In this document: one piece after another, positions 1-13,589 of the stretch
How positions within the stretch are numbered: the first letter of the stretch is position 1
Layout of the letters: every line of letters begins with the position of its first letter
NCBI GenBank assembly: GCA_021736785.1
Contig: JAIPFF010000022.1
Span: 1 to 64,000, forward strand
DNA from: Thiohalocapsa sp.
GTDB taxonomy: Bacteria; Pseudomonadota; Gammaproteobacteria; Chromatiales; Chromatiaceae
Direction: 5' to 3'
Length of the DNA stretch: 64,000 bases
The notes under the pieces: generated by a model
Seen by the model: the letters and a program-made list of their open reading frames with translations, nothing else
What the model was told of the DNA's origin: nothing
Database searches by the model: none
Translations under genes and position numbers: made by a program

Positions 1-467
1 ACTTCCGCGATCTGCTGCATGCCTTCGGCGTACAACGCAGCTACTCCCGACCCCGCGTGAGCAACGACAACGCCGCCAGCGAATCGCTGTTCAAGACGCT
101 CAAGTACAGCCCCGGCTATCCCGGTCGCTTCCGCGTCATCGACCACGCCCGACACTGGATGGCCGCGTTCATCGCCGACTACCAACAGCGCCCGCATGAG
201 GGCATCGCCTTCTACACCCCGGCCGATGTCTTCCACGGCCGCATCGAGACCATCCACGCCCGCCGCCAAGGCGCACTCGATGCCCACTACGCGGCCCACC
301 CGCAGCGCTACCCCAACGGCGCGCCCGTGGCCAAACGACCGCCCGCGGTCATGGCGATCAATCCGAAGGACGCACTGCAGGCCGCCGAGCAGATCGTGAC
401 CACCGCTCGCATCGAAACCGTCAACGAGACGCCGGTGCATCTCTCCGACGACGACAATGTTCATTAG
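1..467 (+). mobile_element. IS3-family transposase (orfB), 3' part only
   Basis: The reading frame is open from the window edge (codons in phase with base 3) to a TAG at 465-467, so only the last ~154 residues are seen. It holds the end of the DDE integrase core: the segment SYSRPRVSNDNAASESLFK carries the catalytic Glu in the usual N-A-x-x-E-S context, followed by the Y-x-x-x-R-P-H-E-G and TP-A-D-V motifs of the rve_3 domain. The C-terminal PPAVMAINP resembles the tail of many IS3 transposases. The last 47 bp overlap the convergent NRPS-like gene, which suggests that the right end of the insertion sequence lies inside or at the end of that gene. The terminal repeat could not be fixed because the left end is outside the window. 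Family assignment is solid; subgroup is unknown. Confidence 0.85.
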
Positions 468-3400
468 CAAAAGCATCGGCGAGTGTCGGAATCACATTGA
501 CATGTTCCGGCACGCTCTGCCCGATGCCTTTCTCAAGCTCCAAAAGTAATCGAATCGCCGAGAGAGAATCGCCTCCTATGTCGGAGAAGCTCGCATTTGG
601 GTTGTAGCGCTGCGATCCGAAAACCTTCTCTAGCGCCATGGCGACAACGATCTCCATCGGCGAATTGACTTCACCGACGACGCCCCCGGTTTCGATATCC
701 GGATTAAAGCTCGGCTCAGGCAGCGCTGCTCGGTCAACCTTGCCGTTCTTGTTCAGCGGAATCGCTTCCAAAAGGGCGACGTGACGAGGGATCATGTATG
801 CCGGCAGTACCGTTTTCAGACGTCGTAGTACAGTATCGGGATCCACCCCTGATGGTTCCGCGACGTAATAAGCGGCTAACTCCTTGGCGTCCGCCGAGGA
901 AACGCGATCGGCAGTCATCGCCGCTTCTCGCACGTAATTAGTCACAACAACAACGGCTTCTCTCACGTCCGGTTGTTGAACAATAGCCCGCTCGATCTCG
1001 CCTAGTTCGACGCGAAAACCGTTGATCTTCACTTGGCCGTCGGAGCGACCATGGTAGAGCAACCGACCGCTCTCCGTAAACGAGGCGCGATCCCCGGTGC
1101 GGTACATCATCGGCGAGGTAAGTGCCCCCCTTTTATCCTTGCGGATAGCGTTGGACGACGCGCTCCCCCCTGCGTCGGTACCAGTGAAAGGGTTCGGCAT
1201 GAAAGCTTCCGCTGTCTTCTCCGGGCGATTGAGATAACCTTTCGAAACGGGCTCGCCCGCAATGAAAAGATCGCCCACGATGCCCGGAGGACAAAGCCCT
1301 CCGAAGGAATCCAGAACGTAAGTCTCGCAATTGGCGATCGGCCCCCCGATGGTCGTCAAATCCTCGCTCATCGTGGCGATGATCGTGGTCTCGGTCGGAC
1401 CGTAGGTGTTAATTAAGCGCACATCCTCGGTTTTCTCTGACCAGCGTAGATAATGGGTCTCCGAGGCCTTTTCGCCGCCGATCACCACAAGTCGGATATT
1501 CTCCGGAAGGTTCTCCGATTCCAGCATGCCGACCAATGCATGCCAGTACGCTGTGGGTAGATCCAGCATGGTGACGCCTTCTCGACGAAGGAATTCAAAA
1601 AAATCCCGAGGGGACTCCTTTAAACCCTCTTCGAGCAGGACGAGTGTTCCACCCGTCAGTAGAATCGGGAATATTTCTTCAACAGAGAGGTCGAAACCGA
1701 GCGCGCCGAATTGCAGCACACGATCGTGCTCGGTCAATTCAAAGTCATCAATGACAGCCAAGTTATGGTTGACAAGATTGCGCTGCGAAATCATAACGCC
1801 CTTCGGCGTGCCGGTAGAACCTGACGTGTACATCAAGTAGGCGGTGTTCCGCGGATCTTGCGCGCGATCGCACGAGGCTAAGACGGTTGCATGGTCGGCC
1901 GCATACGCGTCTGCTTCGACGAAGAGGTCGTGGATAGTAAGACACGTCGCCGGGGAAACGTCGCTCTCCTCGGCAGGCGCTTCCGCGTCCAGCATCAACA
2001 CATATGAAACGCCGGCATCCGCGAGGATCTGCTTCAGGCGCGCGGCGGGGTACCTCCCGTACTCCAACGGCAGGTAGCCGTGACCGGCACCGTGGATGCC
2101 GAGCAACGCGGGTACCAGGGCGAGGTTGCGCTGCGCCATGACGGCGATGACGCTGTTTGGCGGTAGATCGAGTCTTATGAGCGCGCCCGCGATGCTGATC
2201 ACCCGAGCGAGAAGCTCGCCGTAAGTCAGCTCGACGCCTTGGAATCGGACAGCGGTGCGTTCTTTGAAGCGAGGGACGCGTTGGAGGAAATGCTGAAAGT
2301 GGGTTTTTTCAAGATCGTACGGTCTAAAGGTCGCGTTCCACTCTCGCATGATGCGAATTCGATCTCGCTCCGACGTAAGAGGGATATCGCCCAGCTTGGG
2401 AGCGTCTTCCTCAGCCGTCGCCACCGCTTGTTGCGCGTTGGGGATCTGGGGCGTTGAGAGGCTGGAGAGTGCCCGCTTCAGATTGGTCCGAAAATCTTCA
2501 AGACCCTTTGCAAACCTCTGAGCGAGCCCCCGGTCGGCGAAGACAACCGTGGTTACGCGATCGCTCGCCTCGACCAGGAAGGGCGCCGGAGGAAGAGGGG
2601 AAACGCCTGCGAACCTGCAGAAAATATCTGCGATGGGCGGCTGTCGGCGCAACGTTTTCGATAAAGATTCGTCGGTTCGCGCAATCAGCTCGGATACCCG
2701 CATATCGAAATCGCAGCGGATATGCAGCGGAAGGGGTTTCACGAAACACGAGCCTAAAACGCCGCCGGGCCACGTGCCGTGTCGATAAGGGATATCGAAG
2801 GTATTACGGTGAGTGAGCCGCGCGAGAAATAGAGCCAACAGCGTCAATGGCCGGATACCCGAGTCGTCCTCCCGAATGTCAATGGATGCGTGCGAGCAGC
2901 CCGCGGCAACCCCGTCATGGTCGACAGTCGTATCGCGTATATCAACGGTTTTGAGCAACCGCCCGCTGCCGAGCAATGGCAGTTCGAGCGCCTCTGCGTC
3001 TCTCAGTCTGTTGATCCAGAAACCCTCGGACCGCACTCCGACACGGTAGATGCTCTCCAACGAATCCAAATCAAACGGGTAAGAAAGGAACAGCGTCGGC
3101 AACTTCTTCTCCCCGAAACCCGGCTGCTCGCTCGCCTCGTCAGCGTCTTCGGAGCCGAGCAGTTCGACAAGCGACAGCCCATCGGGGTCGACGCAGTAAA
3201 CATCCTTCAGCCTAAGCCATCCGTCTTTGCAGCGAACGACTATCGTCGGCGGCCGGGCCTGCTCTACAAATCCTTGTCCGGGCTCTGACGATGCGTCGGC
3301 GTGGCTGTGCTCGAGTCCCTTTGCATGCTCGACCGAACGAAAGCTGAAAATCTGCTGCCGGAAGAGAAATTTGGGCAGACATAAGGGGTTGTCGGTCGCT

Positions 3401-4113
3401 CCGAACAATAGCCCGCGAGACAAACGGCACGACTCGTCCACCGAGTCGGTCCAGCGCAGGAATCCCGCGCCATACGGTCGGTCATAGAGTCCGAAATAGG
3501 ATCTGCCGGTCACGCGCTGGGGAGTGCGAGCCAACTGGGATTGCACGAGATCGTCAACTAGACTGTCGAAGATCTGAATAGCGATCTCGGTGCACCGCAA
3601 GTTGAGTGTCTGCGCTGTGTCGTCGTGCTGGATTGGGACTCGCCCCGACTTGACGATGTCGCCGGTATCGATACCCGACTCCATCAAATGCCAAGAAACC
3701 CCGTGCTCTCGCTCGCCGTTGATGATGGCCCATGACGTTGCATTAAGCCCCGCGTAGGCCGGAAGCGGGGAGTCGTGGTAATTGATGGCCGCGAGTCGCG
3801 GCAATGCGAGGATTTCCTGGGCGAGGATGTGGCTATTGATAACGCTAAAAAGCAGATCGAACGGCTGTGCCGCAAGCACTGCCCGTATATCGTCGTCTTT
3901 GGGGTGGTAAACGCAGAGATCCAATTGCCGCGCCGACCTCTCCACGAGTGGGTCGTCGCTGATGACTCCGCGAACCCCGAGGCCTTTGGCGAGCAGAATT
4001 TCAACGCACCTGACTGCCATGCCCGTTTCTCCAATGACGAAGCAGTTCACGGCGTGTTCGCGGACGTCGTGCGTCGGGCAGGCAAGCGACTGGGGACTGA
4101 CTCGGCGTTGCAC
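421..4113 (-). CDS. NRPS-like protein: formyltransferase-partial condensation-adenylation-carrier
   Basis: 1230 residues. About 23-320 form a 10-formyl-THF-dependent formyltransferase (catalytic N111, H113, D149) with its C-terminal subdomain. About 365-550 resemble only the C-terminal lobe of a condensation domain (SCFVKPLPL); no HHxxxDG motif is present. About 600-1130 are an adenylation domain: YTSGSTGTPKG at ~762-772, NTYGPTETT at ~902, YRTGD at ~1004, NGFRVELGEIE at ~1031, NKNGK at ~1121. Asp808 in the FDLS motif is the position that binds the alpha-amino group in GrsA-type domains. About 1150-1217 are a carrier domain with Ser1183 in GGDSL. There is no thioesterase. The GTG start has GGAGG 8 nt upstream. 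It lies 42 bp after a GT4 gene on the same strand. The F-A-T order recalls the LgrA initiation module; a role in N-formyl-aminoacyl decoration of a glycan is inference. Its last residues appear to be encoded by IS DNA. Confidence 0.9.
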   Translation of the reverse strand: MQRRVSPQSLACPTHDVREHAVNCFVIGETGMAVRCVEILLAKGLGVRGVISDDPLVERSARQLDLCVYHPKDDDIRAVLAAQPFDLLFSVINSHILAQEILALPRLAAINYHDSPLPAYAGLNATSWAIINGEREHGVSWHLMESGIDTGDIVKSGRVPIQHDDTAQTLNLRCTEIAIQIFDSLVDDLVQSQLARTPQRVTGRSYFGLYDRPYGAGFLRWTDSVDESCRLSRGLLFGATDNPLCLPKFLFRQQIFSFRSVEHAKGLEHSHADASSEPGQGFVEQARPPTIVVRCKDGWLRLKDVYCVDPDGLSLVELLGSEDADEASEQPGFGEKKLPTLFLSYPFDLDSLESIYRVGVRSEGFWINRLRDAEALELPLLGSGRLLKTVDIRDTTVDHDGVAAGCSHASIDIREDDSGIRPLTLLALFLARLTHRNTFDIPYRHGTWPGGVLGSCFVKPLPLHIRCDFDMRVSELIARTDESLSKTLRRQPPIADIFCRFAGVSPLPPAPFLVEASDRVTTVVFADRGLAQRFAKGLEDFRTNLKRALSSLSTPQIPNAQQAVATAEEDAPKLGDIPLTSERDRIRIMREWNATFRPYDLEKTHFQHFLQRVPRFKERTAVRFQGVELTYGELLARVISIAGALIRLDLPPNSVIAVMAQRNLALVPALLGIHGAGHGYLPLEYGRYPAARLKQILADAGVSYVLMLDAEAPAEESDVSPATCLTIHDLFVEADAYAADHATVLASCDRAQDPRNTAYLMYTSGSTGTPKGVMISQRNLVNHNLAVIDDFELTEHDRVLQFGALGFDLSVEEIFPILLTGGTLVLLEEGLKESPRDFFEFLRREGVTMLDLPTAYWHALVGMLESENLPENIRLVVIGGEKASETHYLRWSEKTEDVRLINTYGPTETTIIATMSEDLTTIGGPIANCETYVLDSFGGLCPPGIVGDLFIAGEPVSKGYLNRPEKTAEAFMPNPFTGTDAGGSASSNAIRKDKRGALTSPMMYRTGDRASFTESGRLLYHGRSDGQVKINGFRVELGEIERAIVQQPDVREAVVVVTNYVREAAMTADRVSSADAKELAAYYVAEPSGVDPDTVLRRLKTVLPAYMIPRHVALLEAIPLNKNGKVDRAALPEPSFNPDIETGGVVGEVNSPMEIVVAMALEKVFGSQRYNPNASFSDIGGDSLSAIRLLLELEKGIGQSVPEHVNVIPTLADAFANEHCRRRRDAPASR

Positions 4114-4155: not shown

Positions 4156-5325
4156 CTAGTCTGCGGGCCGGCGATCGGCTGCACGCTCGAATGTGGACAT
4201 GAGGCCGCCGAGAAAACGCTCGTGACGGTAGTTTTCCTTGACGATACGCGCTGCTTCGGCGCCCAAGCGCTCCGCTAGCGCAGGCTCGGAGAGGAGACGA
4301 TCGAGATGGGTGGCCAACATCGCGACGTCCGCCGGCGGGGCAAGCAACCCGTTTACTTCATGGAATAACCAGTCTGTGATACCTCCGGCAGCGAATCCCA
4401 CGACCGGCCGACCTCTTGCCATCGCTTCGATACCTACCATGCCGAAGGGCTCCGGCCACCGTGACGGTACAACCGCCACGGCAGCTCCCGCGAAGTACGA
4501 TTCGAGTGATTCGTGATCGACCCATCCAACGAAACTGACGCGCTCCGATACCCCCAACTGCCTTGCGAGTTGCTTGCACGCCTCGAGGTGGTTCCCTGTT
4601 CCGACGATCGTGGCATGCCACGCGCGGTGTAGGCGTGCCAGTGCACGCAGCATCAAGTCAACTCCCTTACCACGGATGACTTGGCCGACGTACAGCACTT
4701 CTGCCGTTCCAGGGGCGGGTAAAGCGACAGCCGATTGCAAGGATCTCGGGATCGGCGGATGGATATCGACGCGCTCCTTGTCGACGCCGTTCACCACCAG
4801 TTCCTGCCGCATCCAACGACTACCCACGACGAAACGGCGCACATCGCGATGAGCGAATATCGCGCGCTTGCGATCCGATACGCGGCGAAATTCGACGGGC
4901 CACCGGCTTCCCGAAGGTGCGCGTGTCACGAAGCACAACCGGGTGTAGCAAGAGATCCCGGCCGGCAGATCGCAAATGCCGTCGCTGATGGGGAAATACT
5001 TGTGTCGACGTAAACACACCAGATCATGGTCGTGAATCATACGCACCGTCGGACATGCCCGGCTCAACAGTGGGATCACTTCGTCGTCGGCCACCTTATG
5101 CACCAGAAGCACATCCGGCCCGAATGCTCCAATCGTACTCTCTACGTCCTCATGAAGTGTCCCTACACTCTCAAATGGTGTGCAGAACTTGCGGTCGGCG
5201 TCCGGCTCTCCGTGCAGCAACGCTTGCGGGTGGCCTTCGGCGCACAGCCCCGAGGCGATATCGTAAAGAATGCGCTCGACGCCGCCAAAAAAGCCGGCCT
5301 TTTGGTTTACATGCAAGACTCGCAC
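4156..5325 (-). CDS. GT4-family glycosyltransferase
   Basis: 389 residues starting at a GTG. The N-terminal MRVLHVNQKAGFFGGVERIL is the usual first strand and Gly-rich loop of GT-B, family 4 retaining transferases. The C-terminal half has the nucleotide-sugar part: LYVGQVIRGKGVDLMLRAL, then VVPSRWPEPFGMVGIEAMARG, the E-x7-E motif that contacts the donor. It probably adds a sugar to a lipid-linked polysaccharide unit on the cytoplasmic side of the inner membrane; donor and acceptor cannot be read from sequence. It sits upstream of the NRPS-like gene on the same strand (42 bp gap) and is divergent from the polymerase-like gene. In the 275 bp divergent gap, a TATACT hexamer on the minus strand (5399-5404) may be its -10, but no good -35 is placed. 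Confidence 0.88.
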   Translation of the reverse strand: MRVLHVNQKAGFFGGVERILYDIASGLCAEGHPQALLHGEPDADRKFCTPFESVGTLHEDVESTIGAFGPDVLLVHKVADDEVIPLLSRACPTVRMIHDHDLVCLRRHKYFPISDGICDLPAGISCYTRLCFVTRAPSGSRWPVEFRRVSDRKRAIFAHRDVRRFVVGSRWMRQELVVNGVDKERVDIHPPIPRSLQSAVALPAPGTAEVLYVGQVIRGKGVDLMLRALARLHRAWHATIVGTGNHLEACKQLARQLGVSERVSFVGWVDHESLESYFAGAAVAVVPSRWPEPFGMVGIEAMARGRPVVGFAAGGITDWLFHEVNGLLAPPADVAMLATHLDRLLSEPALAERLGAEAARIVKENYRHERFLGGLMSTFERAADRRPAD

Positions 5326-5600
5326 TATGAAAACCGTCGGTGCGTGATGAGGTTACTACGCCTTGATCCGGCCATGAGTCGTGTAGCGTACATGCTAGAG
5401 TATACGCGTTTCCCCGCGGCATTCGATGTCGACTCCATCACGAAACCGGCGGGGCCTTTTGCCGACGTGTTGCTTCGCAGGACACCGGTTCCGGCGTAAG
5501 CCGCCCGGCCGCGTCGCCGCGACATATGCGGGTCAGCACTTGTGTGCACTCTCCGAGCCGTAGCAAACGAACACCAGCCGCCCGCGTAGGTACTGGACTC

Positions 5601-7085
5601 ATGCCGTTGCCAGCCGAACTTTTCCCCGAGCCGATCAGCTTTAAGCAAATCGTGTTCGTGCTGATGACGCTAGGCTTTCTCGTCGTGGCGATCCCCGCGG
5701 CGATTCGATTCGCTTGGTTCGAGCGTGCCTGCATCGCCGGCATCATGTTTATGGCCATCAACCCCGTCGACGTGACGTTTTTCAGCTACACGAACTACCG
5801 TGGTGATATTCGCGGAATCGAATTCGGGGTCACCGATTGGTTCATTATTACGCTGATCGTCAGCATGGCAACCTCACCACGATGGAAAAAGCGGCGCCTG
5901 TACGGCAGAAACCCAAACGAAATACCCATGGCGCTTTATCTGGGCTGGTGCCTCATTTCCATCGTGACGGCCACAGTCCCACAATTCGCTTTCTTCGGAG
6001 TGACGCGTCTCTTGCGCGCCTACGCGCTGTTTTGGATCGCTTACAATTATCTTCGCTCGGAAGACGATCTGCGCTTTGTGATCTGGTGCGTCGTCGGTTT
6101 GACGTTCTATAGCTTCTTCGGAGTGCTAATGGACAAGTACGTGCGCGGCGTTTTTCCGCCGCGCGGCTCGTTCCCCCACCAGAACTCTCTTGTCACCTTC
6201 CAAAACTTCATGAATTTCATCGTCTTTGCCATGGTGATGGGTGACACCAAAAAAGTTTTCGACAGAACCACTTTGATCTACTGGGGAGCGTTGGGCGCCG
6301 GTTCTCTCACCAGCGTGGCGACGCTCTCCAGAGGCGGCATGGCGACGATGGTCATGGGCTATATGCTGTTGGTGCCGGTAATGATGTGGCTCAGGCAAAA
6401 ACGGGTAAAACTGAAAAAAAAGGGACTCGCGCTCTTGGTCATGTTCGTCGGGGCACTTCCAGCGCTGATCGTCGTGCTGCCGCAAATCATCAAGCGGTTC
6501 CAGACGGCCCCTGAAGCGTCCGCTCATGCTCGGGACGTATTCAACGAAGTCGCCAGACAGATTGGCGATACGCATTTCTTCGGTATCGGGCTGAACAACT
6601 ATTCCTATGCCGGCGCTTATATGGAGTATAAAGATCAATTACCCGGAATCGATCAAGGTGGCCTCGCGCACCACATCTACTGGCTGCATTACGCCGAGCT
6701 CGGTTTGTTCGGGGTCATTTTCTTCCTGCTTCTCATGGGCGGTTTTATGCTGGCAATGATACGGTTCGTGTTGAAGCGAAAGGAGAGTGTAGAGCGCTTG
6801 TTTTGTGCTGCCGTGCTTGTCGGCTTCCTGATTGCGATGCTGATCGGCAAACTCGAGTGGAACTGGCGGCAAACTCAGCTACTGATGACCTACTTCATGT
6901 TCGCCGGATTCGCCCTTTCGTTACCCCGCCTCGAGCAGCAACGTGTGATCGAGGAAAAGCGTCGTCGAGCGCGCCTGGCGCAAATATATTCACTGCATAT
7001 TCAAGGAACGAGAGGCAGACAATCAAGCGGCGCCGCCGCCGTCGCCCACGCTCCGTCCGATAGGCGCGGGGCCGCCGATAGCTAA
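5601..7085 (+). CDS. O-antigen polymerase/ligase-like membrane protein (Wzy/WaaL type)
   Basis: The ATG at 5601 is preferred over an upstream in-frame ATG at 5526 because the protein then begins just before the first hydrophobic helix; it gives 494 residues. The sequence has about ten membrane segments, one long soluble stretch before HDVFNEVARQIG-type residues, and HFFGIGLNNY followed by HHIYWLHYAELGLFGVIFF, typical of the Wzy_C/O-antigen ligase superfamily. Such proteins polymerise or transfer undecaprenyl-linked glycans on the periplasmic face. Polymerase and ligase cannot be told apart here. The neighbours are glycosyltransferases and a flippase. Its last 4 bp overlap the stop of the convergent GT4 gene. 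Confidence 0.82.
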   Translation: MPLPAELFPEPISFKQIVFVLMTLGFLVVAIPAAIRFAWFERACIAGIMFMAINPVDVTFFSYTNYRGDIRGIEFGVTDWFIITLIVSMATSPRWKKRRLYGRNPNEIPMALYLGWCLISIVTATVPQFAFFGVTRLLRAYALFWIAYNYLRSEDDLRFVIWCVVGLTFYSFFGVLMDKYVRGVFPPRGSFPHQNSLVTFQNFMNFIVFAMVMGDTKKVFDRTTLIYWGALGAGSLTSVATLSRGGMATMVMGYMLLVPVMMWLRQKRVKLKKKGLALLVMFVGALPALIVVLPQIIKRFQTAPEASAHARDVFNEVARQIGDTHFFGIGLNNYSYAGAYMEYKDQLPGIDQGGLAHHIYWLHYAELGLFGVIFFLLLMGGFMLAMIRFVLKRKESVERLFCAAVLVGFLIAMLIGKLEWNWRQTQLLMTYFMFAGFALSLPRLEQQRVIEEKRRRARLAQIYSLHIQGTRGRQSSGAAAVAHAPSDRRGAADS

Positions 7086-8341
7086 TCGCGGTCTAGTCCA
7101 CTGCGGTTTCGTGCGCCGCTAATCAAATCCTCGTAGAGATCAATGAGTCGCGCCCCGATCGCTCGCCAGTCGTACTGCTGCACTGCCTTGGCACGTCCCT
7201 GCTCAGCGAGCCGTCGGGCGAGTTGGGTGTCGTTGAGGACCGTTTCCATCGCTCGAGCGAGCGATTCAGGCGACCCTGGCTCCGCGTGCAGCACGTCGAG
7301 CCCATCACATGTAAAGGAAGGAATGCCGCCGATACGGGAGGCGACAACCGGCAGGCCGGCGGCCCAAGCCTCCAGTATCACGATGCCGAATGGCTCGTGT
7401 AGCGACGGCAGGCAAAAGAGGTCTGCGGCGTGGAACGCACCGAATAGGAGCGGATCGTCGTGCTGAAGACCGGGAACGAGCGTAACGTGCTGTGCTAATC
7501 CCAGCTCGTTGATCCGCGCGAGCAGGCGATCTCGATACCCCGCGACTGTCACGGGCCCGAGGAGAACAAGGTGGAGATCGGAATAACGCGCAGCGAGATC
7601 GCCAAATGCGTCGACGAGTCCGATTTGGTTCTTTTGATAGTCGATACGGCTGACGCACAGGATAACTCGCCGCGCCGCCGGAATACCGTACGCGTCCCGA
7701 AAGGCTGCGCTATCGCCTTGGGCGAAAGCCGAGCAGTCGACCCCGTTCGGCATCAGCTCAACACGTTTTCCGGGCAATCGTTCGCGCGCCGCCGAAAGCT
7801 CGTCCGCGCCGACGCAGAGCACTGCCGACGCGTCCGAAAGTACTGATCGAGACCCGAGTACCAGTCCGGCGAGCCTGCCCCATTCGATGGCGTCTTCCTG
7901 CGGCGTGAGCATTTGCTTCATTTCCGCCTCGGGTACGGCGAAGTGTCCGCCGTGCAGGGTGACCACGTAGGGAATGCCGCGCAGTCGGGCGGCGGTGCGT
8001 ACGGACGCGCCCAAGCGTTTGCCCGTATGCGCGTGCAGAATGTCGACACCAGGCTCGCGTAGAAGCGCCCACAAAAGCGGCAGCGACAACATGTTGCCGC
8101 CTTTCTTGTCCATCTCCAAGCGCGCACGCTCGCTGAGGCCGAAAAAGGGGTAGGAATAGGCAAAGCGACGGACGGGAACCCGCTGCATGGTGTCGGCTAC
8201 CTGATCCGACAGCGCGAGACTGGTGAATATCTGTACGTCCGCCCCGGCTGCCCTCAGCGTCTTACTGGTTTGGAGAATCGTGGTTTCCGTACCGCCCCAT
8301 TCGGTGGCAACGAAGCGCCGGGGAACTTGGATGACTTTCAC
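7082..8341 (-). CDS. GT4-family glycosyltransferase
   Basis: 419 residues with a GTG start. N-terminal MKVIQVPRRFVATEWGGTET carries the Gly-Gly loop of GT-B folds. The donor-binding half has ILCVSRIDYQKNQIGLVDAF and CLPSLHEPFGIVILEAWAAG with the E-x7-E motif. It should act in the cytoplasm on a lipid-linked glycan. Translation is probably coupled to the flippase upstream on the same strand: the start and the flippase stop share GTGA (8338-8341). Substrate is unknown. It is distinct from the other GT4 gene in this region and not a recent duplicate by eye. Confidence 0.88.
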   Translation of the reverse strand: MKVIQVPRRFVATEWGGTETTILQTSKTLRAAGADVQIFTSLALSDQVADTMQRVPVRRFAYSYPFFGLSERARLEMDKKGGNMLSLPLLWALLREPGVDILHAHTGKRLGASVRTAARLRGIPYVVTLHGGHFAVPEAEMKQMLTPQEDAIEWGRLAGLVLGSRSVLSDASAVLCVGADELSAARERLPGKRVELMPNGVDCSAFAQGDSAAFRDAYGIPAARRVILCVSRIDYQKNQIGLVDAFGDLAARYSDLHLVLLGPVTVAGYRDRLLARINELGLAQHVTLVPGLQHDDPLLFGAFHAADLFCLPSLHEPFGIVILEAWAAGLPVVASRIGGIPSFTCDGLDVLHAEPGSPESLARAMETVLNDTQLARRLAEQGRAKAVQQYDWRAIGARLIDLYEDLISGARNRSGLDRD

Positions 8342-9867
8342 GCGCCGCCCTCTGCAACTGGTGCACGTCCGCGTCGCAGCGCGCTCAGCTTGGCTCTCGC
8401 GAATGCGCGCTCCTCGGGGCTAAGTGCTGTGGCGGCGAATACCGTGAAGTAGACCAGCGCCGCTGCACCTCCCTCGAGCAGGAGCCATAGGAAATTACTC
8501 GGAGGCTGTAGCTCTGCGAGGCCCCATGCGACGGCCAGCGACGGCAGCAACGGCGGAATCGAAGGGCCTACGGCGTGAGTGAAGAAGCGCAACGCGGGAA
8601 TGTTCCTTGCGCGGCAAGCCCGAGGAACGATGACCAGCATCTCAATGGTGAAAGCTGCGATCAGCGTCGCGAACGCAACGCCGTTCAGTCCGAAGAACTG
8701 GATGAAAATCAGGGAGAGGACAAGATTAATCGCTGCAGACGACAGCATGGCGTAAGCGGTGAATCGATGATCACCGTTCATGGCAATAACGTTGGCGGCA
8801 TTCAGCTGAACAGCGGTGAAAAATATTGCCACCAACAGGATACGAAGCACCGGAATCGACCCGGCAAACTCATCTCCCATCCAGAGCAGAATCACGTCGT
8901 CGGCATAGAAGAAAAGCAGCGAGACGAACGGCACTGCGATCGACAAGCTGAACCTTGTGCCATCCATGAGCACGCGAGTGATCACCTCTTCTTTTCCGCC
9001 ACCCTTGGACTGCGACACCAATGGCATAAGCGCGTTGGAAAACTGCTTGTTGAGATAATAGGCGTATTCTGCGATTTTCGCGCCGATCGCGTAAACCGCA
9101 ACAGCGGTGAGCGGCAGAAAGGACTTGATGACGACGGGGTCGATGCGCAGAATCAATAGAACGGCGACATTGGCCAGGAAAAAGAATAGGGAGAAATCCA
9201 TCACTTCGCGAACACGTTTTCGCGAGAAAAGCACCGGGTTTAAGGAAAGCCCCGGCGTATAGTGGAAGGCAAACGGGATCATTACAACATTGGCTAGGAC
9301 CATTGTCGTCGCCGTTGTTACGATCAACCCGAGCATGCCGTAGCCTAAATGCAGCGTGAGCGCAATCACACTTGCGTTGACTAGAGTAACGACGATCTCG
9401 ACGGTATTTGTAACGGCCATATGTCCGCCGCCGTTGAGGATGGCGCGGACCAAGTTGAGCGGAAGATTAATGGCGACTGCGCATCCAAGCATCCACAAGG
9501 CAATGGTGAACAATTGTTCGGTCTGAGAGGTCAAATTGAACCAGTCGCCGGCGTGATTGGAGACCACGGCAACCGTGGTGATACAGACCAAGCCAAGTCC
9601 GGTATAGACCACGAACAGCGTCGCCAAGACTTCGTTCCGCCCCTTGCGATCGTCGCTGCCGGCGAACTCTCCCATGTACTTGACCGCCGCGGTCGCAAAA
9701 CCGAGGTCGAGCATGCCGAACATCGCGACGATCGCGAATATCAGCGACCACAGGCCAAATAGGTCCATGCCGATCTTCGAGACGATGAAGGGCGTCAGGA
9801 AGAAAACGGCGACGATCGAAACGACGAAGCTAAGATAACTCGTCGCGATGTTGACGATCCAGCGCAT
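8338..9867 (-). CDS. polysaccharide flippase, Wzx/MOP family
   Basis: 509 residues with 12 to 14 predicted hydrophobic helices and the N-terminal YLSFVVSIVAVFFLTPFIVS typical of oligosaccharide-lipid flippases of the MOP superfamily. FGLWSLIFAIVAMFGMLDLG matches the conserved second helix region. It would move undecaprenyl-linked repeat units from the cytoplasmic to the periplasmic leaflet. An AGGAG sits 8 nt upstream of the ATG. It is followed with 4 bp overlap by a GT4 gene and preceded by the phosphatase-superfamily gene (62 bp gap), so the three are probably co-transcribed. Confidence 0.88.
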   Translation of the reverse strand: MRWIVNIATSYLSFVVSIVAVFFLTPFIVSKIGMDLFGLWSLIFAIVAMFGMLDLGFATAAVKYMGEFAGSDDRKGRNEVLATLFVVYTGLGLVCITTVAVVSNHAGDWFNLTSQTEQLFTIALWMLGCAVAINLPLNLVRAILNGGGHMAVTNTVEIVVTLVNASVIALTLHLGYGMLGLIVTTATTMVLANVVMIPFAFHYTPGLSLNPVLFSRKRVREVMDFSLFFFLANVAVLLILRIDPVVIKSFLPLTAVAVYAIGAKIAEYAYYLNKQFSNALMPLVSQSKGGGKEEVITRVLMDGTRFSLSIAVPFVSLLFFYADDVILLWMGDEFAGSIPVLRILLVAIFFTAVQLNAANVIAMNGDHRFTAYAMLSSAAINLVLSLIFIQFFGLNGVAFATLIAAFTIEMLVIVPRACRARNIPALRFFTHAVGPSIPPLLPSLAVAWGLAELQPPSNFLWLLLEGGAAALVYFTVFAATALSPEERAFARAKLSALRRGRAPVAEGGA

Positions 9868-9929: not shown

Positions 9930-11081
9930 CTAAACGCCCGCTTCCGCGCGCATCAGATGAAAGATGTCCGTGATCGCCCCGGGATTCGTGCTCGGCTCCA
10001 CGTTCGACAACAAGCTCGCATCGGAGTCCGGATCATCCGGGTGATAGCCGTGCATACCGGTAATGGGCTTGAGGCCCATGTGGCTCGGCACGATGATCAC
10101 GCCGGGATTGGTCAGAAAGATCAGCTGGCCGTATTGGTCGCCTTCGAAATCGCAGCCGAGCTCCTGCAGTTCTTCGTCCGAGAGGATGCGTCCGTGCGGC
10201 TCCTTCAGCAGCGCTTCGGTGATGGCGTGACGCGCGGACTCGTTCTTGAGCCAGAAACGGCCCATGGTGGAATCGTAGGTGGCGACATAGTCTCGGTCGA
10301 AGACCAGGCCCAGGGCCTCGATGCGCGACATCAGGTCGATATGAGTGTGCACCGTGGCCATGCCGTGGTCCGAGCAGACATGGAGCCTGACCTCGGGATA
10401 GTGAGACTCGGCGACTTCGAGCAGCGAGGTCAGCTCCTGCTCGTACCAGGCCAGCTTCTCGTCCACCAGCGGACTCTCCTTGCCGACCTGGTGCAGCAGC
10501 GCATCCATCGACGCCATGTAGAGGAACGCGAAGCGGATCTCGCCGCGGACGATGTCGGCCTTGAGCGCGGCCAGATTGTTCTCTTCGCTGTCGCGCCAAT
10601 TCGAGACATGGTAGGGGACCCGCTCGCGCTCGAGCAGGTCGAAGATGTTTTCGCCGCGGTTTAGCCCGCCGGGCCGGAACAGATCCTTCTTTTCACAGTA
10701 GTCGAACTTGTCGATGTGCTGGAACGGGATGTTGTATAGCTGAAAGTAACCGGTGAATCCGTAGGCTTTCTTGACGGCCTTGCTGATCTGGTTGCGCACC
10801 CGCCCGCGGTCGACGAGTCCGCTCGGCAGCCAACCGAGCGGCTTCAGCGGCCTGAACGGGGAGGTTTCCGGCGAGTAATAGAAAAATGACCAATGCCGAT
10901 GCTCGCGCGGCGTCAGGCCCGATAGGATCGAGGGCACGCAAGCCGAAGAAAAGCCGAACGTAGAGCGCAGCTTGCGTCGAACCGGCAGCCGATCCTCCAT
11001 AAAGCTACGCCCGCGCAGAACCTCCCAGCCCAATGCATCGATGAAGCATACGATCGAGAGTGTCTGTTGGCTGGACGGCAT
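9930..11081 (-). CDS. alkaline-phosphatase-superfamily phosphodiesterase/pyrophosphatase
   Basis: 383 residues. Metal-site motifs of the type I phosphodiesterase/nucleotide pyrophosphatase group are visible: FIDALGWEVL near the N-terminus, a nucleophile region FGFSSACVPSILSG, HVCSDHGM in the middle and ITGMHGYHPDDPD near the C-terminus. No signal peptide or membrane helix is seen, so it appears cytoplasmic. Relatives often occur in polysaccharide or phosphonate gene clusters and cleave phosphodiesters or sulfate/phosphate esters. The exact substrate is unknown. It stands between the flippase (62 bp away) and the STAS gene (116 bp away), all on the minus strand, so it could be the first effector gene of the partner-switch operon. 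Confidence 0.8.
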   Translation of the reverse strand: MPSSQQTLSIVCFIDALGWEVLRGRSFMEDRLPVRRKLRSTFGFSSACVPSILSGLTPREHRHWSFFYYSPETSPFRPLKPLGWLPSGLVDRGRVRNQISKAVKKAYGFTGYFQLYNIPFQHIDKFDYCEKKDLFRPGGLNRGENIFDLLERERVPYHVSNWRDSEENNLAALKADIVRGEIRFAFLYMASMDALLHQVGKESPLVDEKLAWYEQELTSLLEVAESHYPEVRLHVCSDHGMATVHTHIDLMSRIEALGLVFDRDYVATYDSTMGRFWLKNESARHAITEALLKEPHGRILSDEELQELGCDFEGDQYGQLIFLTNPGVIIVPSHMGLKPITGMHGYHPDDPDSDASLLSNVEPSTNPGAITDIFHLMRAEAGV

Positions 11082-12266: not shown

Positions 12267-13589
12267 TCAATCCGCCTGCCGCTCGATGACAAGCACGGAG
12301 ATGTCGTCTTCGAACTCGGTTTCTCCGCGCCAAGCGGTCACGCTGCGGCGTAATTCTTCGGCCATTTCCGCCGCCGTACAATGCCGATGGCGGACCAGAA
12401 GCGACTGGAAATGGTCGATGTCGAAAGCCTGCCCGTCGGCGTTGAAGCAGTCCGTGATGCCATCCGAATAGGTAATCAGCCGATCGCCCGGATAGAGCCG
12501 GAAGCGCTGGGCCTCGTATTGCGCTGCTTCGAACATGCCCACCGGCAAGCCGCCGGCCGTAAGGCTCTCGACGCTGCCGTCGCTGCGCAGCAGCATCGGC
12601 TGAGGATGGCCGGCGGAGGCAAGCCGCCCTTCGCCGGTATATTTGTCGAGCACGCCATAGACGACCGTGGCGTAGTTGGTGACCTCGCCGTCGGGGCTGC
12701 AAAGCTCGTGATTCAGCGTCGTCAGAAAGTCCGCGGGTACCAAATAATCACCGGCGGGCGTACCGACGCCGGTATGCGGCACCAGCGAGCGGCTGAGACT
12801 GGTCGAAAGCAGGGCGGCGGGAATGCCGTGGCCGGAGACGTCGAGGTGATAGAAGCCCACTTCCTCCTGCGAGACCGGGAAAAAGTGAAAGCTGTCGCCG
12901 GAAATCTTCGCCGCCGGCAGGAACAGCCAGCCGGCGCACAGGGGCGCGATACTGTCGTCGGAGACGGGCAGCGATTCGCGTTGAATACGCGCCGCTGCAG
13001 CAAGGTCGTTCTGAATTTGCGTGTAGGCGCGGTCGAGCTCGTCGTGGTGCTCTTGCAGGCGCCGGTTCTGCTCCGCCAGCGTCTCCTCCAGTCCGAGGAT
13101 ACGCACGCCGACCTGCAGGCGCGCACGCAGCACCTGTGCATCGAACGGCTTGCCGACGAAGTCATCGGCGCCGGAATCGAGCCCGTAGACCAGGTCGGTG
13201 TCCTCGGTGCGCCCGGTCAGCAGCATGACGTAGACGTAGTGCCCGAAATCCTCGCGACGAATCGCGGCGCAAACCTCGGGCCCCGACATGCCGTCCATCA
13301 TCCAGTCGCAAATGACCAGCCGAATGCCGCCCTGGCGCATCCGTTCCAGGCCCTCCGCACCGTTGCTCGCGAGTACCGCTTCGTAGCCCCACTTGCGCAA
13401 CAGCGCACGCACGTAGATGCGCACGTCCGGCGCATCGTCGATCACAAGCACCTGCAGTGTCTGGGTCAACATCGACGCGCGCTGCACGCGGCCGCTGTTC
13501 GGCGCATCGTCGCGAGTACGGTCGGGCTCTGGCATTGTCGAATCCGGCATTGAAGCGTTGCCTGTCGGGCTCTGTTTTTTCTCGCGCAT
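12267..13589 (-). CDS. response regulator fused to PP2C (SpoIIE/RsbU) phosphatase
   Basis: Up to 440 residues; the true start may be an ATG nearer 13469, just before LQVLVIDDAPDVR, since none of the candidate starts has a strong ribosome site. A receiver domain (phospho-acceptor Asp in LVICDWMMDG, Lys in GKPFDAQ) is followed by a coiled-coil linker around EQNRRLQEHHDELDRAYTQI and a PPM-type phosphatase domain with SGDSFHFF, DVSGHGIPAA, YSDGITD and EDDISVLV supplying metal-binding aspartates. It should dephosphorylate the STAS protein encoded two genes on, in response to phosphorelay input. The cognate histidine kinase is not in the window. HsbR of Pseudomonas and SypE of Vibrio are functional parallels. 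Confidence 0.88.
   Translation of the reverse strand: MREKKQSPTGNASMPDSTMPEPDRTRDDAPNSGRVQRASMLTQTLQVLVIDDAPDVRIYVRALLRKWGYEAVLASNGAEGLERMRQGGIRLVICDWMMDGMSGPEVCAAIRREDFGHYVYVMLLTGRTEDTDLVYGLDSGADDFVGKPFDAQVLRARLQVGVRILGLEETLAEQNRRLQEHHDELDRAYTQIQNDLAAAARIQRESLPVSDDSIAPLCAGWLFLPAAKISGDSFHFFPVSQEEVGFYHLDVSGHGIPAALLSTSLSRSLVPHTGVGTPAGDYLVPADFLTTLNHELCSPDGEVTNYATVVYGVLDKYTGEGRLASAGHPQPMLLRSDGSVESLTAGGLPVGMFEAAQYEAQRFRLYPGDRLITYSDGITDCFNADGQAFDIDHFQSLLVRHRHCTAAEMAEELRRSVTAWRGETEFEDDISVLVIERQAD

Follow-up and report, generated by a model that had tools for sequence, protein, structure and literature searches.

The described systems closest to the gene studied here are LgrA, which likewise combines a formyltransferase, an adenylation domain and a carrier domain and is its best sequence match in the PDB, and the formyltransferases Fmt and ArnA, which have the same Asn/His/Asp residues and a C-terminal subdomain. 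Formylation domains of nonribosomal peptide synthetases (NRPSs) are described in the accessible part of a 2022 review as very scarce, known from three products and always located in the initiation module (PMC8949500), and the accessible part of another paper reports on Entotheonella peptide clusters that have formyltransferase loading modules, which is an ordinary setting (PMC12858407). Here we describe an NRPS gene at the beginning of a Thiohalocapsa sp. contig (JAIPFF010000022.1, called C44 below), whose positions 1 to 64,000 form the window analysed. The gene belongs to an exopolysaccharide (EPS) locus, and it is well supported that it was split in its carrier domain by an IS3-family element, its two parts lying on contigs C44 and C66, which are unjoined in the assembly. 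Window position 1 is the edge of C44, and the features involved are the following.

1..509, plus strand: end of the IS3-family element (rve_3), with the 3' part of the transposase open reading frame (ORF) at 3-467
510..513, no strand: GCAC (GTGC on the gene strand), likely a copy of the target-site duplication; second copy at C66 1576-1579
510..4113, minus strand: NRPS 5' part, with formyltransferase N and C subdomains, condensation C-lobe, adenylation domain and first part of the carrier
511..666, minus strand: first part of the carrier domain, with Ser1183; PF00550 match ends at 52 of 67 positions
739..2283, minus strand: adenylation domain, residues 611-1125 (PF00501, 3.7e-73; TIGR01733, 5.4e-111)
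2371..3060, minus strand: condensation C-terminal lobe, residues ~352-581, HHxxxDG not present (profile match, model)
3082..3516, minus strand: formyltransferase C-terminal subdomain, residues ~200-344 (family profile, structure model)
3514..4056, minus strand: formyltransferase catalytic domain, residues ~20-200, with N111, H113 and D149 (PF00551, 1.5e-20)

The initial annotation had treated the ORF at 421-4113 as one standalone protein. The ORF exists, on the minus strand, but the alignment of the window with the element copy on C66 ends at window position 509, and the last 29 residues of the ORF (1202-1230, window 421-509) are therefore element sequence, so that residues 1-1201 form the 5' part of the NRPS proper. 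On C66, directly beyond the left end of the element, there is an open frame with the remainder of a carrier domain and a thioesterase domain (PF00975, 1.3e-23), followed by a GT4 glycosyltransferase gene (GT4c) and then by a gene for a Wzz-domain protein. Each NRPS piece was aligned on its own to five intact relatives, and the end of the first and the start of the second fell on the same or neighbouring residues, as in L145 (1091-1159, then 1159-1229) and L077 (2057-2125, then 2130-2196). The two parts add up to a gene of ~1,510 residues, whose domain order before the split was formyltransferase, half condensation domain, adenylation, carrier and thioesterase; the carrier stands in cis and is completed only on C66. 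The thioesterase thus appeared to be absent because of the insertion and the contig end, a combination which can mimic a new domain layout; the truncation of the carrier had been overlooked as well, while its Ser1183 was correctly placed. Contig C22 also has an element-bearing end, but its listed part showed neither an NRPS nor a glycan gene by eye, and it was rejected as the contig that continues the gene.

The element repeat at 1-509 has more copies elsewhere in the genome. The C66 copy is complete and its transposase scores 167.6 bits with NF033516, above the IS3 cutoff of 160, whereas the window copy carries only the 3' part of the transposase; the two differ in 17 of 509 columns. IS481 was rejected as the family, its score lying below cutoff. 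The gene strand enters the element after ...GCGTGC and leaves it before GTGCCGG..., GTGC being common to both flanks, which sit on different contigs (C44 and C66). An assembly error at the element junction, with an intact gene in the organism, is very improbable: contigs do break in repeats, and the far end of the C66 copy matches contig C58, but element ends are present at both junctions, which share a 4-base repeat and fall on one site of the gene, as a real insertion would. The C58 flank where one from C44 was expected means that the assembler mixed copies or that copies recombined, and it is the main loose end of the split reconstruction. The NRPS gene is probably inactive now in this genome.

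Pfam matches in the ORF were Formyl_trans_N, AMP-binding, AMP-binding_C and PP-binding, and the residues N111, H113, D149, D808 and S1183 are all in place in a frame that stays open through 1201 residues; Pfam together with residue checks and alignment bears out the formyltransferase and the adenylation domain as first annotated. In an alignment of 74 modules (those of the window and L149 included), the catalytic Asn and His of the formyltransferase were found in 74/74 and the Asp in 73/74. The formyltransferase is longer than had been proposed, residues ~200-344 being its C-terminal subdomain, whose family profile matches the C-domains of Fmt and ArnA; the profile of the next region matches SrfA-C 200-455 (E 3e-13). 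Residues 200-600, modelled with 40 sequences (mean predicted local distance difference test, pLDDT, 80.2; predicted template modelling score, pTM, 0.80), comprise two domains, at model positions 1-145 (Z 9.7-10.1 against Fmt) and 153-382 (condensation C-lobe, Z up to 11.9). The Pfam models Formyl_trans_C and Condensation did not reach threshold in the window NRPS and did so in relatives (L034/L081 and L102).

HHxxxDG was not found in the half condensation domain of the window NRPS, and HHxxxD occurred in 0/74 aligned modules within the region matching residues 260-600. Residues 340-560, where a full condensation domain had been considered possible, hold the C-lobe only, and profile and model together confirm the half condensation domain predicted at the outset. 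The same annotation had let the amino acid pass to a sugar through this half domain, which fails as a catalyst because the N-lobe and HHxxxDG are missing; judged from its sequence it is probably not the transferase. A complete standalone protein of formyltransferase, half condensation domain, adenylation and carrier, working in that way, can practically be discounted: the half domain is real, but the gene is cut by the element, its thioesterase is on C66, and HHxxxD is missing from the half domain in 74/74 modules.

Compared with LgrA, then, the window NRPS shares the formyltransferase Asn/His/Asp, the adenylation domain and the carrier, and lacks both the direct joint between formyltransferase and adenylation domain and a downstream condensation partner. 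The adenylation match in LgrA starts at about chain residue 200, whereas here the formyltransferase C-subdomain and the condensation C-lobe lie between the two; LgrA continues into elongation, while the window gene ended in a thioesterase and is followed by a GT4 gene. Unlike Fmt and ArnA, the formyltransferase is fused to an NRPS module, and its expected substrate would be carrier-bound rather than a tRNA or a nucleotide sugar. DltA and exosortase-A-associated AMP ligases (TIGR03098) occur in envelope or EPS settings and are AMP-forming like the adenylation domain, but either identity was rejected, the scores of 246.9 and 186.3 bits being far below the curated cutoffs of 559.85 and 592.35 bits, respectively.

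On its 5' side the NRPS gene, which starts 42 bases from GT4a, is followed by these genes.

4156..5325, minus strand: GT4 glycosyltransferase (GT4a), which adjoins GT4c in relatives (Pfam, synteny)
5526..7085, plus strand: Wzy_C polymerase/ligase (PF04932)
7082..8341, minus strand: GT4 glycosyltransferase (GT4b; Pfam)
8338..9867, minus strand: Wzx-type flippase (MatE/Polysacc_synt)
9930..11081, minus strand: type I phosphodiesterase-like protein, kept in the EPS locus of relatives (PF01663)

Pfam thus upheld the glycan neighbours named at first (GT4s, polymerase/ligase and flippase), and with the chain-length protein on C66 the locus has the flippase, polymerase, glycosyltransferases and chain-length protein of a Wzx/Wzy-type EPS locus. 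The G+C content of the NRPS gene is 0.58, against 0.55-0.64 for the measured genes of the locus and 0.664 for window positions 14000-64000. Strong matches to GT4a were present in 17 of 204 genomes of the family, this one included, and nine loci from the 16 others were sampled. In 8/9 GT4a was followed directly by GT4c, with a gap ranging from a small overlap to ~450 bases; the ninth (L216) had GT4a without GT4c within the 11 kb examined. No NRPS match was found between or around GT4a and GT4c in the stretches fetched from these relatives, and the region of formyltransferase plus C-lobe had no match at 1e-25 in 9/9 congeners. Here the two are found on different contigs, GT4a beside one half of the NRPS gene on C44 and GT4c beside the other half on C66; from the adjacency in relatives it follows that the NRPS gene was added to a conserved locus (phosphodiesterase, Wzx, GT4b, Wzy, GT4a, GT4c, Wzc) and was split later.

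The 83-kb contig C44 carries ends of the same element at 1-509 and 83092-83236 in one orientation, and for that reason a circular replicon was considered. It was set aside because the GT4a-GT4c synteny leads from C44 to C66 and because some ORFs look like housekeeping genes, namely those on C44 which by eye we take to be Lon, KsgA and a DEAD-box protein. Upstream of the EPS locus, window 12267-13589 (minus strand) encodes a response regulator with a SpoIIE phosphatase domain; the same type of regulator stands upstream of the EPS locus in two relatives (G027 and G440; L219, L220), and it is a possible switch for the locus.

A scan of genome contigs with the single sequence found no relative, while a scan with the alignment gave 179 related stretches. 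The best 80 of these 179 were examined and spread over 13 phylum-level groups by record title; 68 rows entered the tree, the others having dropped out because of contig ends or ORF picking. In stretches that showed both domains, the adenylation motif lay 588-761 residues past the start of the formyltransferase match, so something always stands between the two. In six rows from Verrucomicrobiota and Kiritimatiellota (L074, L076, L078, L079, L086, L095) the intervening stretch measures 267-282 residues against 401 here, and the C-lobe is possibly not whole. Pfam showed the formyltransferase, adenylation, carrier and thioesterase domains together in one gene at L145, L094, L102, L088 and L118, and an internal formyltransferase behind a full condensation domain at L069, L071, L077, L078 and L089. 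The domain order up to the adenylation domain, beginning with the formyltransferase, had been thought undescribed but is common in genomes; the accompanying impression of novelty held for the setting, as no open-access paper on a formylating NRPS in a polysaccharide, nonulosonate or roseobacter glycan context was found by title and start of abstract. The five internal formyltransferases contrast with the rule of an initiation module, and the 179 related stretches, some with an internal formyltransferase and some in capsule loci, with the term "very scarce", both as worded in the accessible part of the review (PMC8949500).

The window NRPS groups in the tree with three Lentisphaerota rows (100/96) and with one Cloacimonadota row (100/97); L069/L073 as its immediate neighbours received 96/41 and are not firm. 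Its nesting among these rows suggests that the gene was transferred between phyla. Members of the wider clade from Lentisphaerota, Cloacimonadota, Kiritimatiellota and Verrucomicrobiota (L069, L073, L077, L089, L078, L086) have a similar adenylation code and a Cys thioesterase like the window NRPS, but in those with enough sequence (L069, L077, L078, L086 and L089) the formyltransferase comes after a condensation domain or module, whereas it is N-terminal in the window gene. The window gene could be a 5'-truncated remnant of a two-module synthetase such as L077 (adenylation, carrier, condensation, formyltransferase, half condensation, adenylation, carrier, thioesterase) that was dead before the element arrived: in the close relatives L069, L077 and L089 a full condensation domain lies directly before the formyltransferase, and the window copy begins at the formyltransferase, 42 bases after GT4a. 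We consider this unlikely, given the open frame of 1201 residues with its catalytic residues kept and the intact single-module forms which start at the formyltransferase in other lineages.

By alignment columns, the adenylation code of the window NRPS reads DLEDVGTIIK, and relatives have DLEDVGSIIK (L077), DIENVGTVIK (L069, L073), DIENVGTIIK (L089) or DGEDIGTVVK (L074, L076, L078, L086, L095). The ten positions presumably correspond to the code positions of GrsA. An acidic third position with an acidic residue or Asn at the fourth is, we assume, typical of codes for lysine-like amino acids; none of six such Lys-type strings turned up in a paper when searched for as text. The formyltransferase of this clade may formylate a side-chain amine, because in close relatives it follows a condensation domain, which consumes the alpha amine.

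The thioesterase belongs to its family by profile and has a GxSxG-type nucleophile elbow in a Cys variant: GWCxGG occurs in the window NRPS and in nine rows of the wider clade, the window's own motif being GWCYGG with Cys replacing Ser, and the nucleophile is Cys in 14 of the 47 rows with a letter at that position. According to the accessible parts of two papers, Cys thioesterases are less common, and those of ObiF and SulM are linked to ring closure (PMC6668435; PMC11298585); these have the Cys nucleophile in common with the window thioesterase, and close four-membered rings on other substrates. As the domain of transfer or release, the thioesterase is likelier than the half condensation domain.

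Homologues do not always sit in ordinary peptide clusters, and a glycan setting recurs in some of them. Four acidobacterial loci (L070, L088, L097, L111) are capsule loci with ABC export, in which the NRPS gene accompanies NeuB, NeuC, NeuA, Wzc and Wzm in 4/4, Wza in 3/4 and AsnB in 3/4 (checked with Pfam on L088 only). L070/L097 and L088/L111 are separate in the tree and have different codes, and occupy the same place in this kind of NeuB/NeuC/NeuA locus; L070 has a second such NRPS, from the wider clade of the window gene. In alphaproteobacterial loci such as L119, genes for a type I polyketide synthase, GT2, NRPS, phosphopantetheinyl transferase (PPTase) and Wzz stand in a row; at L119 the first four have overlapping ends, so that the NRPS overlaps the end of the GT2 gene; L078 has GT2 and GT4 beside a PPTase gene, and L086 has GT2 and GT4 by our own profiles.

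Glycan genes were counted with home-made profiles whose seeds came partly from relatives' loci (L088, L115, L119), which favoured the relatives in the first count; some of its matches were weak (GT2 scores 21-30), and a minority was checked with Pfam. The controls were 20 NRPS loci, all of the window's class, and kinship was ignored in the tests. At least one glycan gene was found in 22 of 80 relatives' loci against 1 of 20 controls (Fisher p 0.038), and at least two in 16/80 against 0/20 (p 0.037). Without the three seed loci the counts became 19/77 and 13/77 (p 0.06 each). When all seeds were taken from this genome, they were 14/80 against 1/20 after one round (p 0.29) and 19/80 against 1/20 after three (p 0.07); as p rises in this way, the enrichment of glycan genes around relatives is only suggestive.

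The explanation we prefer, which as a whole stands at about even confidence, is that a single-module NRPS of Lentisphaerota-like ancestry was inserted between the two GT4 genes of a Wzx/Wzy locus, was later split by the IS3-family element within its carrier domain, and formerly put a formylated amino acid on a glycan. In the intact protein, the amino acid that the adenylation domain loads onto the carrier would, judging from the code, probably be a diamino acid, and the formyltransferase would formylate the carrier-bound amino acid from N10-formyl-tetrahydrofolate, with the C-lobe presumably serving only as structural support for the adenylation domain. The Cys of the thioesterase would then take over the acyl group for transfer to an acceptor, of which the likeliest would be an amino or hydroxyl group on a sugar precursor from the same locus. 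If formylated amino acids are indeed passed to sugars, as we infer, this would be a route from an NRPS to a surface glycan that was not found in the literature searched.

Several observations weigh against this explanation, besides the C58 flank, the weaker recounts and the empty search for the codes. A glycan gene was not seen in the available sequence of 58 of the 80 relatives' loci, and there was none at the four rows closest to the window NRPS in the tree (L069, L073, L077 and L089), though L073 and L077 are short contigs that limit the view of neighbours. Glycan loci accounted for only 4 (L070, L088, L097, L111) of 15 hand-picked loci with a single module and a thioesterase, the others being L094, L102, L106, L112, L117, L118, L128, L131, L134, L140 and L145; L070 has two such genes, and L135 (one adenylation match, longer protein) and L148 (module over two ORFs) were kept outside. 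Some relatives also adjoin further NRPS genes, and the rings closed by the Cys-type ObiF and SulM are beta-lactones or beta-lactams, as the accessible parts of the two papers state (PMC6668435; PMC11298585). The loci with no glycan gene, the neighbouring NRPS genes and the ring closure would suit an intact gene that yields a small free product, either an amino acid carrying the formyl group or a lactam whose ring the Cys thioesterase closes, with the EPS location incidental. That reading is a serious contender, though one we doubt, since it leaves aside the NRPS among NeuB/NeuC/NeuA capsule genes at four acidobacterial loci, the overlap of the L119 NRPS with the GT2 gene and the place of the window NRPS between two GT4 genes.

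Extending the preferred explanation, single-module synthetases of formyltransferase, adenylation, carrier and thioesterase might be exchangeable decoration genes of capsule and EPS loci in several phyla, which attach formylated amino acids to glycans. The idea arises because two separate acidobacterial lineages hold the same place in the locus with different codes; it is speculative, and we would not expect it to hold in this general form.

Further formylating and other NRPS genes were seen along the way. At L119 (10028-14662) a luciferase-like monooxygenase domain splits the adenylation domain of the formylating NRPS (Pfam, L119 only), and the adenylation matches are split alike in other alphaproteobacterial loci. 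L091 encodes a formylating NRPS of 3,772 residues, cut by the end of the locus, on a contig of a metagenome-assembled genome whose Chlamydia trachomatis title is probably wrong. In the genome studied here, contig C18 bears another NRPS gene (L038, 9116-13186) with a carrier-like stretch at its start, and the ORF after it reads by eye as what we take to be a carbamoyltransferase-like protein.

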